Source: Pseudomonas sp. Ga0074129
Lineage (GTDB): Bacteria; Pseudomonadota; Gammaproteobacteria; Pseudomonadales; Pseudomonadaceae
Assembly: GCA_001465025.1 (NCBI GenBank)
Contig: LNDO01000073.1
Coordinates: 50,223 to 114,222 of the forward strand
Reading direction: 5' to 3'
Length of the DNA: 64,000 nucleotides
A program made the translations under genes and the position numbers. Below the pieces are notes generated by a model. That model saw only the letters and a list, made by a program, of their open reading frames with translations. It did not search any database and was not told the DNA's origin. This document shows positions 5,687 to 64,000 of the stretch, in pieces (the stretch's first letter is position 1; each line of letters starts with the position of its first letter).

Positions 5687-5993
5687 GCGCGTGCTCCATC
5701 GGTTGGGCAGCAGGCTGCTTTTCGGTATCAAGCGATTCAGCAGGCTGCGCCGCCCAAGGCTCCTGGGCATAAGTGCGCCAGCCGCCGATACGGCCGACCA
5801 AGTCATTGGCTTCACGCCAGTTTTGCAATGGCGGTTCGCTGTAAGGCTGATAGCCGCTAAGCGGCGATTGATACTCCAGGGCGGGTGTAGGCGCTTGGGC
5901 ATTCAGGGGGTCAGGCTGCGCAGCCCAGCTGCTGGCAGACATACCCAGCAGACAGGGCAACGCCCACCTGCAGATATCGGCAATGTATTTCAT
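5673..5993 (-). CDS. Small exported protein of the copper cluster
   Basis: A 106-residue protein of unknown function. The ATG at 5993, preceded by GAGGT, yields a typical signal peptide (MKYIADICRWALPCLLGMSASSWA) followed by a Pro- and Gln-rich chain with a recurring YQSPLSGYQPYSE pattern and a short His-containing tail (HAHDLH). The only Cys residues are in the signal peptide. It overlaps the start of the TolC-family gene by 14 bases and lies 102 bases downstream of the CopL-like gene. Its place in the operon suggests a periplasmic accessory role in copper handling, but this is inference from position only. Confidence 0.75.
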   Translation of the reverse strand: MKYIADICRWALPCLLGMSASSWAAQPDPLNAQAPTPALEYQSPLSGYQPYSEPPLQNWREANDLVGRIGGWRTYAQEPWAAQPAESLDTEKQPAAQPMEHAHDLH

Positions 5994-6095
5994 TGAAAAA
6001 ACCTCGCATGCAACAGCGCTACGGCGTAATGCCGCCAGCACGCTGCTTATGGCGCAACAAACGCGGTGCATAGCCATGCACCACGCACGTTTTGG

Positions 6096-6494
6096 CTAGG
6101 CGAGGATCAGGCGCGGAGGTCTTTCGGGGGTTTCGGCAATAAAGCCGACAAACGCATCGCGGGGCGCCACGGTGGGCTCGACGGCTTGCAAGGAGGAATA
6201 ACGGCTGACCCGTGTATTCAAAGCTGCGGCGCTCACACAAAACGCGCACAAGCTACACAGGCTGTTGTCGGCGACAGAAACGGGGCTACTGGGGTTATCG
6301 CTGGCGTGATGAGCGCCGTGATCGCCTGCCTGCACAGGCTCGGTCATCATCGACATACCGGCATGATGAGCCGCAGCCATCGCACCGTTTGGCGGGGTCG
6401 ACGTACACAACTGCATGCCAAGCGCCGCCATACTCTGCGCCATAAAGGCGAGCATCAGCAGACAGGTCAGGGCAGTACGCAGGGTTTTGTGCAT
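6096..6494 (-). CDS. CopL/DUF2946-like metal-binding protein
   Basis: A 132-residue protein with an N-terminal hydrophobic signal or anchor (about residues 5-24), a His/Met-rich stretch (HHAGMSMM, HGAHHA) and a Cys cluster CSLCAFC at about residues 80-86. This composition is typical of small exported copper-responsive proteins (DUF2946, CopL-like). It is the first gene of the minus-strand copper cluster, about 30 bases downstream of a good promoter. It may bind copper as a sensor, buffer or regulator in the periplasm; the exact role is not shown by sequence. Confidence 0.7.
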   Translation of the reverse strand: MHKTLRTALTCLLMLAFMAQSMAALGMQLCTSTPPNGAMAAAHHAGMSMMTEPVQAGDHGAHHASDNPSSPVSVADNSLCSLCAFCVSAAALNTRVSRYSSLQAVEPTVAPRDAFVGFIAETPERPPRLILA

Positions 6495-6529
6495 GGTGCT
6501 GGTTTGTCTTCAGCGCGGGTGTTTCGCGG

Positions 6530-6557
6530 ATTATCCACCCAATCGACCAATTGTCCA
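6530..6557 (-). promoter_or_regulatory. Promoter of the copper cluster
   Basis: Reading the minus strand, a TGGACA -35 box and a GATAAT -10 box are separated by 16 bases, and the -10 lies about 36 bases before the CopL-like start codon. The spacer is not the 19-20 bases typical of CueR/MerR-controlled promoters, and no cop-box could be identified with confidence. Confidence 0.5.
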
Positions 6558-6603
6558 TGCTGCTGTGGGCAAAAACGCGTTGAGCTGGCTATGATCGAAC
6601 CCC

Positions 6604-7005
6604 ATGACCAGCCCACCCCTGTTGCGCCAACCCTGCCCTCCTGGTGCCTGCGATTGCGGGCGTGAACAGTTGCTGGAACAAGCCGGTAGCGATGCGCGCA
6701 TCCTGCTGCTGACGCGCAACGAGGAAAAACGCCTGCTCGAGCGCCTGGAAAATCTGCAAAGCCTGAGTGATCTGGAAAAACTCCAGCAACGCATCCATGC
6801 ACAACTTGGTATTCGCGTTCATGTTGCGCCCGGCCATAACGAAGTGCGCAGCATGCGTGGCATCAAGATCGAGATCGATGAGCACCCAGGCCTGTGCCGC
6901 AAAACCCGCCAGGCCATCCCCAGCGCCATCCGCCGTGGCCTGGAGAACAACCCGCAGATCGCCTACGACCTGCTCAACGCCAACGACTTGTTCCGCGACC
7001 TCTGA
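6604..7005 (+). CDS. Conserved protein of unknown function
   Basis: A 133-residue protein I do not recognise by function. It begins with a Cys-containing segment (PCPPGACDCGREQLLE), continues with a strongly charged helical region (about residues 34-66, RNEEKRLLERLENLQSLSDL) and ends in a basic/helical part (GLCRKTRQAIPSAIRRGLENN). No signal peptide or membrane segment is present, so it is probably cytoplasmic. It is divergent from the copper cluster with only 109 bases between starts. The ATG at 6604 has no Shine-Dalgarno sequence and a possible -10 box lies just 8 bases upstream, so the message may be nearly leaderless. Confidence 0.72.
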   Translation: MTSPPLLRQPCPPGACDCGREQLLEQAGSDARILLLTRNEEKRLLERLENLQSLSDLEKLQQRIHAQLGIRVHVAPGHNEVRSMRGIKIEIDEHPGLCRKTRQAIPSAIRRGLENNPQIAYDLLNANDLFRDL

Positions 7006-7149
7006 CCGCCAATCGGCAACCCCGCGCCGCACGCGCACAGACCATGCAGCCAAACACTGCGCCTGCCCTTGTCCTGATTTTCGCCAAGCCGCTTGCGACA
7101 CGCTCACGGCTGTGTAGAATCCCGCGCCCCAAAATCAGGAGACAACACG

Positions 7150-7470
7150 TTGGCTATTCATTACTCCGCGACACACGAACAGATTGCTTGTGGGCGCACT
7201 GGCTCGAACCTGAGCAGCACCCAAGACCGGGCTCAGGTTTCATGCAAACTCTGCCAGCGCAGCTTGGAAAAGGGCGTTGCAGAACCCGTGCGTAAAACCC
7301 CCAGCCTCGCTGAGCTCCGGGCCGCCGCCAAAGCGGCCAAGGCAGCCTTGGTCGCGACTGAAACAGCCAAACCGACCCTCAGCCCACGTGCCGTATGGCA
7401 ACAACACCTCGAGCAGCTGCCGGGTAAAAATCGCCTGCCGCGCGGCGTTGCACGGCAGGTGTTTATCTAA
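7150..7470 (+). CDS. Small conserved protein with Cys pair, TTG start
   Basis: A 106-residue protein of unknown function. The start is taken as TTG at 7150 because an AGGAG ribosome binding site precedes it at normal spacing; the alternative upstream ATG at 7093 has none. After AIHYSATHEQIACGRTGSN comes a CKLC pair (SCKLCQRSL), so a small zinc site made with the earlier Cys is possible. The middle is Ala/Lys-rich (LAELRAAAKAAKAAL) and the end is basic (LPGKNRLPRGVARQVFI), suggesting nucleic-acid contact. It has no clear operon partner. Confidence 0.65.
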   Translation: MAIHYSATHEQIACGRTGSNLSSTQDRAQVSCKLCQRSLEKGVAEPVRKTPSLAELRAAAKAAKAALVATETAKPTLSPRAVWQQHLEQLPGKNRLPRGVARQVFI

Positions 7471-59589: not shown

Positions 59590-59666
<77 letters not shown>

Positions 59667-59712
59667 GATACTCAAAAAGGATTTAAGTTATTGATTAAAA
59701 ACCACTAATCGA

Positions 59713-59740
59713 TTGACAAGGCAGCGTTCCTGTATAAAAT
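59713..59740 (+). promoter_or_regulatory. Promoter of initiator tRNA gene 2
   Basis: TTGACA and TAAAAT are 16 bases apart; the tRNA starts seven bases after the -10 box. Confidence 0.75.
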
Positions 59741-59746
59741 AGCCGG

Positions 59747-59823
<77 letters not shown>

Positions 59824-59830
59824 GATACTC

Positions 59831-59862
59831 AAAAAAGGCCACTCAATCGAGTGGCCTTTTTT
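59831..59862 (+). terminator. Terminator of tRNA copy 2
   Basis: GGCCACT and AGTGGCC with a six-base loop, A6 before and T6 after. Confidence 0.88.
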
Positions 59863-59914
59863 GTTTGGGTTGATTTTAATTTTGCTAAGCATTTGATTAA
59901 AAACAGATTTTTCG

Positions 59915-59942
59915 TTGACAGCCAATCGTTTCTGTATAGAAT
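59915..59942 (+). promoter_or_regulatory. Promoter of initiator tRNA gene 3
   Basis: TTGACA and TAGAAT are 16 bases apart; the tRNA starts six bases after the -10 box. Confidence 0.75.
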
Positions 59943-59947
59943 GGCCG

Positions 59948-60024
<77 letters not shown>

Positions 60025-60245: not shown

Positions 60246-61571
60246 ATGTCCACGTCCGCCAGCCCTAAAGTAGGCTTTGTCTCACTCGGTTGCCCGAAAG
60301 CCCTGGTGGACTCCGAACGCATCCTCACGCAGTTGCGCATGGAAGGCTACGAAGTCGTCGCCACCTATCAAGATGCCGACGTGGTCGTGGTCAACACCTG
60401 CGGCTTTATCGACAGCGCCAAGGCAGAATCCCTTGAAGTGATCGGTGAAGCCATCAAGGAAAACGGCAAAGTCATCGTCACCGGCTGCATGGGCGTCGAA
60501 GAAGGCAACATCCGCGACGTCCACCCCAGCGTGCTATCAGTAACCGGCCCGCAGCAGTACGAACAAGTGGTTAACGCCGTGCACCAAGTCGTGCCGCCGC
60601 GTCAGGACCACAACCCACTGATCGACCTGGTGCCGCCGCAGGGCATCAAACTCACCCCGCGCCACTACGCCTACCTGAAGATTTCCGAAGGTTGTAACCA
60701 CAGCTGCAGCTTCTGCATCATCCCCTCGATGCGCGGCAAGCTGGTCAGCCGCCCAGTGGGCGAAGTCCTCAATGAAGCCGAGCGCCTGGTTAAATCCGGC
60801 GTAAAAGAGCTGCTGGTGATCAGCCAGGACACCAGCGCCTACGGCGTGGACATGAAGTACAAAACCGACTTCTGGAACGGCCAGCCGGTGAAAACCCGCA
60901 TGACCGAGCTCTGCCAGGCGCTCTCGACCCTGGGCGTATGGGTGCGCCTGCACTATGTCTACCCCTACCCGCACGTCGACGAACTGATCCCGCTGATGGC
61001 TGCCGGCAAAATCCTGCCGTACCTCGACATTCCCTTTCAGCACGCCAGCCCGAAAGTGCTCAAGGCCATGAAGCGCCCAGCGTTCGAAGACAAAACCCTG
61101 GCGCGGATCAAAAACTGGCGCGAAATCTGCCCCGAACTCACCATCCGCTCGACCTTTATCGTCGGCTTCCCTGGTGAAACCGAAGAAGACTTCCAATACC
61201 TGCTCAACTGGCTGACCGAAGCCCAACTGGACCGCGTCGGCTGCTTCCAATACAGCCCAGTCGAAGGCGCACCGGCCAACGACTTGGATCTGGACGTGGT
61301 CCCGGACGACGTCAAACAAGACCGCTGGGACCGCTTTATGGCCCACCAACAAGCCATCAGCACGGCGCGCCTGCAACTCAAAGTCGGCAAAGAAATGGAC
61401 GTGCTGATCGACGAAGTCGACGACCAAGGCGCTGTCGCACGATGCTACGCCGACGCGCCAGAAATCGACGGCAGCGTGTTTATCGCCAGCACCGCCGTCA
61501 GCCCAGGCGACAAAGTGCGCGTACGCATTGTTGATGCCGACGAATACGACATGTGGGCCGAACTGGTTTAA
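60246..61571 (+). CDS. rimO: Ribosomal protein S12 methylthiotransferase RimO
   Basis: A 441-residue radical-SAM iron-sulfur enzyme that adds a methylthio group to Asp of ribosomal protein S12. The N-terminal cluster Cys are C16, C52 and C81 ([26 protein letters not shown]); the radical-SAM CxxxCxxC is C150, C154, C157 in CNHSCSFC; a C-terminal TRAM domain starts near residue 375 and ends MWAELV. It shares a bidirectional terminator with the convergent integrase gene. Confidence 0.95.
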
Positions 61572-61589
61572 CCATCGGTAACCACCCAC

Positions 61590-61630
61590 AAAAAATGCCG
61601 CTTACGCCAAACACGCAAGCGGCATTTTTT
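61590..61630. terminator. Terminator between rimO and intI
   Basis: AAAAATGCCGCTT and AAGCGGCATTTTT form a long stem usable from both sides; it also marks the left edge of the integron. Confidence 0.85.
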
Positions 61631-61654
61631 ATAACGGCGCAAACACAAACCCCA

Positions 61655-62620
61655 TTACATACGATCCAAGGGACTCAACACAGCCAACCCGCCGCGATTC
61701 AGTACATGGGTATAAATCATCGTGGTTTTCACATCCGAGTGACCCAGCAACTCCTGCACCGTGCGAATATCCTGACCGCTCTCCAACAGATGCGTAGCGA
61801 ATGAATGGCGCAATGTATGCGGCGTGGCCAACTTCACAATGCCTGCACGCTTTATCGCCGCCTTAAAACCACGCTGCACACGCTTTTCATCAATATGGTG
61901 CCGCCGTGTTTTACCGCTACGTGGATCAACCGACAGCCCGGCAGCCGGAAATACGTATTGCCAACACCACTCCCACGGCCCCTTGGGATATTTGCGCTCC
62001 AGTGCAAACGGCATATACACATCACCACGCCCCGCCTCCAACTCCACCGCATGCCGTGCCCTGACAACCGCAAAATGCTGCTTAAGCGGCGCTACCAAAG
62101 AGCGCGGCAACACCGTTACACGGTCTTTCATGCCCTTACCATCACGCACCACAATCTCGCCCCGGTTAAAATCCACATCCTTAACCCGCAGACGCAACAC
62201 CTCCATCAAACGCATACCCGAGCCATACAGCAAATTAGCCACCAGCCAAATATCGCCCTCCAACTGAGCCAAAATGCCCTGCACCTCAGCAATGGTCAGC
62301 ACCACCGGCAAACGGCTCGGCTTTTTAGCCCGCACCACCTCACCCAGCCAAGGCAAATCCAGCTTCAGCACCTGCTTATAAAGAAACAAAAGCGCCGCCA
62401 GCGCCTGATTCTGCGTGGACGCCGAAACATTCTTGCGCACCGCCAAATCAGACAAGAAAGCCTCCACCTCAGCCGCCCCCATCTCCCCCGGATGCTGATA
62501 ATGATGGAAACGAATAAAGCGCTTAACCCACTCGCAATAGACTTGCTCCGTGCGAATCGAGTAATGTTTCAAGCGAATTTGCTCACGAACCTGGTCGAGC
62601 AACCGAGGCTTTCCGTCCAT
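61655..62620 (-). CDS. intI: Integron integrase IntI
   Basis: A 321-residue tyrosine recombinase that recombines attI with folded single-stranded attC sites. The N-terminal SAM-like DNA-binding domain (about residues 5-90) is followed by the catalytic domain with R137, H268, R271, H294 and Y303 ([36 protein letters not shown]). The IntI-specific insertion is clear at about 206-242: [20 protein letters not shown], then [12 protein letters not shown]. The ATG at 62620, with GGGAG upstream, gives the usual pseudomonad IntI length; the longer frame upstream is rejected. All catalytic residues are intact, so it is probably active. Confidence 0.95.
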
Positions 62621-62639
62621 GGTGTATAACTCCCTTATT

Positions 62640-62756
62640 TGCCGAATCACAGCCGCAGCCATGAGACTAGACGGCCCTCCACGGCTCGACAAGAAGGTTA
62701 TCCACCACGCCCGAAAAAGCATTACGGCACCAAGTGGTGTCTATTTATAGTTATGT
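62640..62756 (+). other. Putative attI region
   Basis: Space between the intI start and the first cassette. A crossover point may be at GTTATGT (62750-62756), giving 27 bases to the first cassette ATG; GTTATCC at 62697 is an alternative. Neither fits GTTRRRY exactly, so the boundary is tentative. No LexA box is seen. Confidence 0.45.
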
Positions 62757-63610
62757 ACCACAGCATGGAAATTACTCATGGACAGAAAACTTTTAAAGCT
62801 CCCGTTTAGTCCTGACAGTAGCCCTGACTGGATATGCCCGACATGCAGTAAAGGACTCCTTCGAATAAAGGAAAATTCGTTTATACACGAAGAAGCTCGC
62901 CACTCACGAGAGGCACATGATCACCCCGCATGGGAGCCCGAGTGGATTAGAAGCATCTACACGTGCTTATTGATTTGCTCTAATGAAAAATGCAGGGAAG
63001 TAGTCGCTAGCAGCGGAACAGGCTCAGTTGACTGGGACATAATTGAGGACGAATACGGCCAGCAAGACCAGGTGTATTCAGACTTCTTTATACCCAAGTT
63101 TTTCGAGCCTCATTTGAACATTTTCCCTATTCCCAAAGACTGCCCCGCATCGGTAGTGGCGCTGTTAAACGAATCATTCAAATTATTTTTCTCCAGCCCC
63201 AGCGCCGCAGCAAATAATGTAAGAGCTGCCATTGAGGAGCTATTAACAGAACTTAAAATAAAAAGATTTACCACTGCAAATGGAAAGCGCAGATTTATCA
63301 GTTTGCATCAAAGAATAGGCTTGCTCCCCGCAAAATACGCCCAGTTCAAAGATATGATTTTAGCCATTAAATGGCTGGGTAATGCTGGCAGCCATGGCCA
63401 TGGCGAAGTCACAGCAGATGATGTAATGGATTCGTATGAGTTAATAGAACACATACTTCAAGAGATATACGAGCCTAAAGTTAAAAAACTCAAAGCCTTA
63501 GCCAAAAAAGTTAATAAGAAAAAGGGGCCTGCGTAGTGGCACATAACAATGCGCTCAAATCGCTCACTTCGTTCGCTGGGACGGCGTGCCGCCGCCCCTT
63601 AGCTTAATCG
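62751..63610 (+). mobile_element. Gene cassette 1
   Basis: About 860 bases from the attI crossover to the attC crossover G/TTAG at 63610/63611. It holds one plus-strand gene starting 27 bases in and stopping a few bases before attC, the classical cassette layout. The DNA is clearly more AT-rich than the surrounding chromosome. Confidence 0.82.
62778..63536 (+). CDS. Cassette protein with zinc ribbon and DUF4145-like domain
   Basis: A 252-residue cytoplasmic protein. The N-terminal part has a Cys set that could form a zinc ribbon (C20, C23 in CPTC; C67, C72 in CSNEKC). The C-terminal part (about residues 125-235) resembles DUF4145: LLNESFKLFFSSPSAAANNVRAAIEELL, LHQRIGLLP, and IKWLGNAGSHGHGE with the GNxxxH signature (N202, H206, H208). 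The tail is Lys-rich. DUF4145 domains often accompany restriction or other defence proteins and look HEPN-like. AT-rich codon use and the attC that follows show it arrived as an integron cassette. Function unknown. Confidence 0.82.
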   Translation: MDRKLLKLPFSPDSSPDWICPTCSKGLLRIKENSFIHEEARHSREAHDHPAWEPEWIRSIYTCLLICSNEKCREVVASSGTGSVDWDIIEDEYGQQDQVYSDFFIPKFFEPHLNIFPIPKDCPASVVALLNESFKLFFSSPSAAANNVRAAIEELLTELKIKRFTTANGKRRFISLHQRIGLLPAKYAQFKDMILAIKWLGNAGSHGHGEVTADDVMDSYELIEHILQEIYEPKVKKLKALAKKVNKKKGPA

Positions 63611-63616
63611 TTAGAA
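63540..63616 (+). other. attC site of cassette 1
   Basis: Starts with the R''-like ACATAAC and ends with the R'-like GTTAGAA. Between lie the pseudomonad-type inner segments TCGCTCACTTCGTTCGCT and a GGCG-tgc-CGCC hairpin tip. It aligns with the site at 63928-64000 in ends, spacing and inner words. Confidence 0.85.
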
Positions 63617-64000
63617 GCGGCTGTTTATTTGGTAGTTTTAATATGCAAGGAAGCATCAATAAAATGCTGAGTCCGCACCATCGCAATGATTTAAGAACCC
63701 GTTTCGTCATCAAAAACGGCAGCGTTCTTATCAGTTTTGGCACGTCAACATGCTGAACATCTCGAAAGCTTTGCATCGGCGCGCTCGGCCCTTCGCTGGC
63801 GCACAGGCCATACACCAAATGTATTTGCCGTGCGGGCAATCGTCCGCACGTTCGTTGCCCACCATTTTGGTTCGACTTGAGGTAAAGTCTGCGTTGCCTG
63901 CGAAATCAATGTCCGACATGCCACCACTTCTAACAATAAGTTCAAGTCGTTCGCTTCGCTCACTAGGACGGGCTAAAGCCCGCCCCTTAACTTAACGTTA
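63611..64000 (+). mobile_element. Gene cassette 2, no clear protein
   Basis: About 388 bases from the previous crossover to the attC at the window edge. The only plus-strand frame in a usual cassette position is 37 codons (63643-63756), without a convincing ribosome binding site. Longer frames on either strand run into the attC sites. It contains two overlapping hairpins (arms 63829-63835 with 63844-63850, and 63834-63839 with 63855-63860), so an RNA or regulatory role is possible. Confidence 0.7.
63928..64000 (+). other. attC site of cassette 2, cut by the window edge
   Basis: TTCTAAC at the left, inner TCGTTCGCTTCGCTCACTAG, the hairpin GGGC-taaa-GCCC and CTTAACGTTA at the right; the last bases of the R' site lie beyond the window. 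It is a clear relative of the attC at 63540. Confidence 0.82.

Follow-up and report, generated by a model that had tools for sequence, protein, structure and literature searches.

Proximal end of a probable sedentary chromosomal integron next to rimO in a Pseudomonas genome, with gene-less cassettes of possible regulatory function

Does the right-hand end of this DNA hold a working chromosomal integron, and what do its cassettes carry? The window analyzed here is a stretch of 64,000 nucleotides from the genome of Pseudomonas sp. Ga0074129; a first-pass annotation, made from the sequence alone, had described here a chromosomal integron whose proximal end adjoins rimO. Chromosomal integrons of pseudomonads have near-uniform attC sites and cassettes mostly of unknown function. 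Such sedentary integrons, or super-integrons, were reportedly described in pseudomonads by Vaisvila in 2001 and by Holmes in 2003. The evidence presented below indicates that the locus very probably forms the proximal part of a sedentary integron in the Pseudomonas chromosome. A chromosomal IntI, an attI site, near-uniform attC sites and mostly uncharacterised cassettes are common to it and to the pseudomonad super-integrons. As an integron it is ordinary for these bacteria, another case of a known type; the present locus, with its rimO site and its cassettes, is a new instance among them. The coordinates of its parts are collected in Table 1.

Table 1. Features of the rimO-intI region and of the first two cassettes (positions in the window).
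Feature	Position	Strand	Remarks
rimO	60246..61571	+	Integrase-side chromosomal flank; 441-aa ORF; TIGR01125 (RimO) 580.7 bits, cut-off 356.95
Terminator-like hairpin	61590..61630		Between convergent rimO and intI; AAAAAATGCCGCTT ... AAGCGGCATTTTTT, by direct reading
intI, integron tyrosine recombinase	61655..62620	-	ORF open to 62722; ATG at 62620 preferred
attI	62689..62750	+	Crossover G62750/TT62751
Cassette 1	62751..63610	+	5′ GTTATGT complements own attC start ACATAAC
Cassette 1 gene, 252-aa DUF4145 protein	62778..63536	+	PF13643, E 8.3e-17
attC of cassette 1	63538..63616	+	Model span; crossover after G63610; model R3 69.3 bits, E 5.4e-15, whole genome
Cassette 2, gene-less family	63611..63997	+	387 bp
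attC of cassette 2	63925..64000	+	Cut by contig end, complete on contig C26; model R3 E 1.6e-19, whole genome

Profile scores uphold both halves of that placement. The neighbor is rimO (Table 1), and IntI matches TIGR02249 over the whole profile (1-315) with 492.8 bits, the cut-off being 265; of seven matches to this model across the genome, only IntI exceeds the cut-off. The long ORF aligns from residue 42 to its end with the integrase of the Vibrio superintegron (PDB 2a3v; E 3.5e-88), including the integron-specific stretch. The catalytic motifs R, K, HxxR, H and Y are all present, in agreement with the earlier description of the enzyme as intact. The likelier start is the ATG that lies behind a GGGAG sequence; with this start, attI falls outside the intI gene. 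The closest pseudomonad relatives of IntI are up to 93% identical. Against nine distinct relatives, each with one unbroken frame, dN/dS ratios are 0.05-0.12, clearly low values that near-saturation of synonymous sites makes rough. (Of twelve loci in the comparison, L151, a repeat of L031, L050, in two frames, and L155, with a stop, were left out.) Judged from these substitution patterns, intI is under purifying selection.

The spacer between rimO and intI measures just 83 bases and contains a hairpin (Table 1) that is absent from the output of a consensus terminator scan, its loop exceeding the length permitted by the scan. Three tRNA-Met genes (anticodon CAT) lie in tandem at 59590-60024, just 5′ of rimO. 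At the other end, the array had been said to leave the window. It does continue, with the correction that the last base of the window is also the end of its contig, C73. The terminal 98 bases (63903-64000) recur unchanged as the first 98 of contig C26 (6717 bp), and on the strength of this overlap the array carries on from 64000 onto C26. This second contig completes the second attC of the window and adds six full-length sites, one degenerate site (2545-2619, lacking the GTT) and one site cut by the contig end, so that the further cassettes anticipated beyond 64000 were indeed found, by covariance-model search. The far chromosomal flank is the start of contig C79, behind the end of an insertion sequence. 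Bases 1-105 of C79 match annotated copies of the IS5-like element ISPre1 at 98-100% identity and form the end of such an element, which accounts for the contig break. Next come genes for a 239-aa protein with no family match, a type I GAPDH (gap) and an FAD-dependent protein. With these genes at the start of C79, they and rimO bracket the integron; the stretch from C26 to C79 is unassembled, and the far end is thus not continuous.

A comparison of rimO-flanking regions, which the first-pass annotation had proposed, revealed the site both with and without an integron. A match to intI at E ≤ 1e-80 occurs in 34 of 298 genus genomes. Of 22 named pseudomonad loci (L030-L051), five have rimO no more than about 3.3 kb from intI, two extra genes intervening in L046 and L047; of 29 loci from intI-bearing genus genomes (L134-L162), nine have it no more than 1.5 kb away. 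Conversely, intI stands beside rimO in three of 25 genus rimO loci, the present one included, one of the three being in two frames. The rimO genes that neighbor intI in other Pseudomonas are 83-95% identical to the one studied here. In genome G014 the site is empty, with counterparts of the 239-aa, gap and FAD genes directly behind rimO (94%). These three also border the far end of the array in G592 and, beyond two additional ORFs, in P. taeanensis (L047). The locus thus fixes a chromosomal integron site with both flanks and an empty counterpart. No paper visibly linking rimO with a Pseudomonas integron was found in the literature searched, among the matches listed.

All 19 related loci that were aligned share with the window an attI block ending in TAG/TTA (20 of 20, with small variations), downstream of which the sequences differ. 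Rfam gave no match in 61000-64000 at E ≤ 1, and the attC sites were therefore modeled on the array itself. A first covariance model, R2, was discarded for misplacing the structure and replaced by R3, trained on eight of the array's sites. At E ≤ 0.1, R3 recognizes 12 sites in the whole genome: the two window sites, eight on C26 (among them the completed second window site and the degenerate one) and two on contig C29, one of them weak. The cut site at the end of C26 surfaced when that contig was searched together with the window and the relatives. The E-values of the two window sites are not independent proof, the first having been in the training set and the second having been represented there by its C26 copy. 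Since R3 was trained on eight of its own hits, attC structure and cassette ends provide the fairer tests.

Structure was assessed in 115 sites from 25 sources (the window, C26, C29 and 22 related loci). Fourteen of 20 pairs show two-sided changes, and the 129 two-sided cells compare with 49.4 in shuffled alignments, none of 500 shuffles reaching as high; having been fitted to the model, the alignment is biased toward the structure. The expectation that the sites fold as attC bottom strands is thus sustained at the level of covarying canonical helices and less so for single molecules, since minimum-energy folding gave the full canonical pairing in three of nine sites and a partial one in a fourth. 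As to cassette ends, the first seven bases complement the start of the cassette's own attC at 7/7 positions in eight of nine testable cassettes and at 6/7 in the ninth. Both window cassettes score 7/7 with their own site and 4/7 with the start of the next cassette. Over the seven comparable cases this next-cassette control gives 4, 4, 6, 6, 5, 7 and 6 of 7 and is therefore a weaker control beyond the window cassettes. The match with its own end holds also for cassette 3, which spans the C73/C26 join. With the R3 matches, these results substantiate the two window attC sites.

The common plan of IntI, attI and attC would equally suit a mobile integron of the class 1-3 type, carried by a transposon or plasmid and inserted here by chance. 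Mobile integrons work by the same mechanism. We rejected this reading, which appears extremely improbable: IntI closely matches the integrases of other pseudomonads, the integron recurs at the rimO site in several species, the gap to rimO is very short, and the attC sites, of the type of the genus, are highly alike within the array (86% mean column identity). Moreover, IntI scores 397.3 against NF011946, a narrower model whose scope we take to be mobile-type enzymes, under its cut-off of 435. A sedentary integron better accounts for a chromosomal element at a site that relatives share, which is empty in G014 and whose far flank can be recognized on C79.

By the known behavior of the family, IntI, encoded on the minus strand, would recombine attI with the folded, single-stranded attC of circular cassettes; entry would therefore occur next to attI and yield an array in which all cassettes point in the same direction. 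In integrons generally, the cassettes nearest attI are the most recently captured, and on that basis cassettes 1 and 2 may be recent arrivals. Expression of the array would, as in other integrons, start from a Pc promoter. The search for one returned two promoter-like sites, against 2.5 expected by chance, neither of them upstream of cassette 1.

Might the integron instead be a fossil, with an inactive IntI and a frozen array? Several observations lean that way. The intI gene is broken in some relatives: in G069 (93% identical) by an in-frame TAG, in P. kuykendallii (L050) by a split into two frames, as also in the rimO-adjacent copy of G001. One attC on C26 is degenerate, and a LexA box is absent upstream of the present intI, neither CTG-N10-CAG nor CTGT-N8-ACAG occurring in 62601-62800 (atypical boxes fall outside these search forms). 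Against this, the present gene is intact, with complete catalytic motifs and low dN/dS, perfect end matches persist in eight of nine cassettes, and one C26 cassette, that with a 186-aa gene, shares 91.9% identity across 667 bp with a cassette of Stutzerimonas nitrititolerans, a likeness that suggests exchange between genera. We therefore regard a fossil as unlikely and the integron as real and probably functional.

Ten cassettes are visible, two in the window and eight on C26, one of the latter having the degenerate attC and the last being cut by the contig end. The size of super-integron arrays is given as 20 to 200 cassettes in PMC3108266; the ten seen here are followed by the C26-C79 gap, and the array of the relative G592 has 93. 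The DUF4145 protein of cassette 1 matches weakly the PADLOC model of a defense gene, PD-T7-4 (17.1 bits, E 7e-4), and has relatives on 133 plasmid records, the best with 47% identity. Only one of ten C26 proteins scanned scores above a Pfam cut-off (pilin domain PF00114, E 3.7e-5), which agrees with the earlier view of the cassette genes as largely uncharacterised; its ORF sits in a four-ORF cassette with matched ends (C26 4287-6262). On contig C29, which also carries umuD/umuC-like genes, an attC-bounded cassette with sodC (Cu/Zn superoxide dismutase) lies beside a transposase gene (5700-7231) and possibly belongs to a distant section of this array.

Three visible cassettes have no recognizable gene: cassette 2 and two members, on C26, of a family referred to here as nc. 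Cassette 2 has neither a long ORF nor one that is clearly coding; those present are short, antisense or run into attC. The first-pass annotation calls for correction here, and, there being no Pc promoter above chance either, its suggestion of present activity in both window cassettes is not supported. Relatives of cassette 2 occur in G592 (three copies; 71% identity over 330 bp), G154 and G014, and a plasmid search gave no match. A frame of 87-89 aa is open in two of them (L125 and L141) and stops after 37 aa in the window copy and five others, suggesting that the family may include gene remnants. Cassette 2 seems unlikely to specify either an antisense protein or a small peptide (30-37 aa). 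The 37-aa frame starts with MQGSI, has AAGGA before an inner ATG and keeps its length in six copies, which would suit a peptide; amino-acid identity between the window and G592 copies is nonetheless low (about 7/30 by eye), lower than DNA identity, and antisense frames vary among copies.

The two nc copies span 2301-2554 and 6263-6677 of C26 (attC excluded). DNA searches detected the family in eight of 298 genus genomes, the present one included and one by 28 bp only. A model of its 3′ part matched 10 of 398 genus genomes, one weakly; the family-level search gave 10 of 398 genomes, three weakly or partially, and two of 19 genera, the second by a weak partial match only. Plasmids yielded no match. 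Copies from different species are up to 91% alike, and nc occupies the attI-proximal position in L030, L035 and G069. None of the titles and abstracts listed in literature searches with limited coverage of subscription papers visibly describes this family.

Besides the two copies in the present genome, eight were found in G154 and 23 in G592. The latter genome is complete and has, between rimO and the same far genes (C1, about 3409275-3493781), 93 attC-bounded cassettes by nhmmer, or 92 by covariance hits. With 23 of 93, nc is by far its most abundant family; the next, that of cassette 2, has three copies and no other has more than two. When 92 of these cassettes were clustered (one beside the gap was dropped), 58 proved single. 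Sense ORFs of 70 aa or more occur in 68 of the 70 non-nc cassettes, counting the chance frame of the cassette 2 family. The nc copies are placed as at random and not in tandem. Even spacing was rejected, the variance of the gaps being like that of random placement (P 0.44), and identity between copies is independent of their distance (r -0.05 over 194 linked pairs).

Two candidate functions for nc were rejected. It is not a coding gene: the best frame is open in six of 29 distinct copies, and every frame has stops in the majority. Nor does it behave as a structured RNA: with 10 copies folded on either strand, z-scores stayed between -1.3 and 1.5, and two-sided changes were absent from all 32 predicted pairs. 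PMC11014356 defines a gene-less cassette by the lack of any ORF over 70 aa; some nc and cassette 2 copies do have frames longer than 70 aa, which enter attC. On the sense strand the motif TTCACA-N17-TTTACT is kept, with hexamers 98% and spacer 85% conserved, yet 17% of all 6-mers of the family are equally conserved.

Gene-less cassettes have a precedent in Vibrio. In PMC1382264, a non-coding cassette family is present in 45 and 34 copies in two V. vulnificus strains, is stated to have no homologues outside vibrios, and is read in one of two ways, as selfish or as regulatory. PMC11014356 reports promoter activity in most of the Vibrio gene-less cassettes tested and the failure of in-silico prediction to find such promoters. 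The Vibrio cassettes and nc are alike in being conserved, non-coding and present in many paralogous copies per array; the nc and cassette 2 families are, in contrast, Pseudomonas sequences, and promoter activity of nc is proposed by analogy. The arrays differ too: the attC sites here are about 79 bp long and of the Pseudomonas type, and ten cassettes are visible, versus more than 100 in large Vibrio arrays according to a table in PMC1382264.

Following what is known of the family, gene-less cassettes would most likely serve as added promoters for the cassettes downstream, and we propose a promoter role for nc as a leading reading, by analogy with the Vibrio cassettes of PMC11014356. In its full form, the proposal is that mobile regulatory cassettes have evolved within the super-integrons of Pseudomonas: the nc and cassette 2 families, devoid of genes, would be copied by the integrase throughout the array and would act as promoters sustaining the expression of far cassettes, in an unrelated parallel to those of Vibrio. 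We advance it tentatively, as a real possibility short of a probable one. A competing view, to which we give similarly guarded credence, holds that both families are passengers, either selfish or dead, and represent decayed genes that chance has multiplied, with no regulatory role. The lack of a stable RNA fold, promoter-like hexamers no better conserved than about 17% of the family's 6-mers, the longer frame of L125 and L141 with its hint of gene remnants, and the selfish option offered for Vibrio all fit with passengers. Less easily explained in that manner are the preponderance of nc in G592, where most clustered cassettes are single, its random scatter in place of tandem arrays, and the likeness of copies across species. 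The gene-less cassettes matter more than the integron itself and are the part worth bench work. If the promoter-cassette proposal is true, about a quarter of the cassettes of one genome are regulatory parts; and should an array about one-quarter non-coding have arisen independently in a second genus, the expression of far cassettes becomes testable with one sequence family and reporter fusions.

Two minor observations concern arrays of relatives. That of G592 is split by a 40-kb block (C1, about 3430638-3471126) whose genes look ordinarily chromosomal by eye; its second half opens with a second attI-like site, with no intI match there, and the split is possibly a rearrangement. Locus L216 (G154:C9:292000-306000), in the middle of a contig and with no integrase match within 14 kb, holds 11 attC sites and one nc copy.
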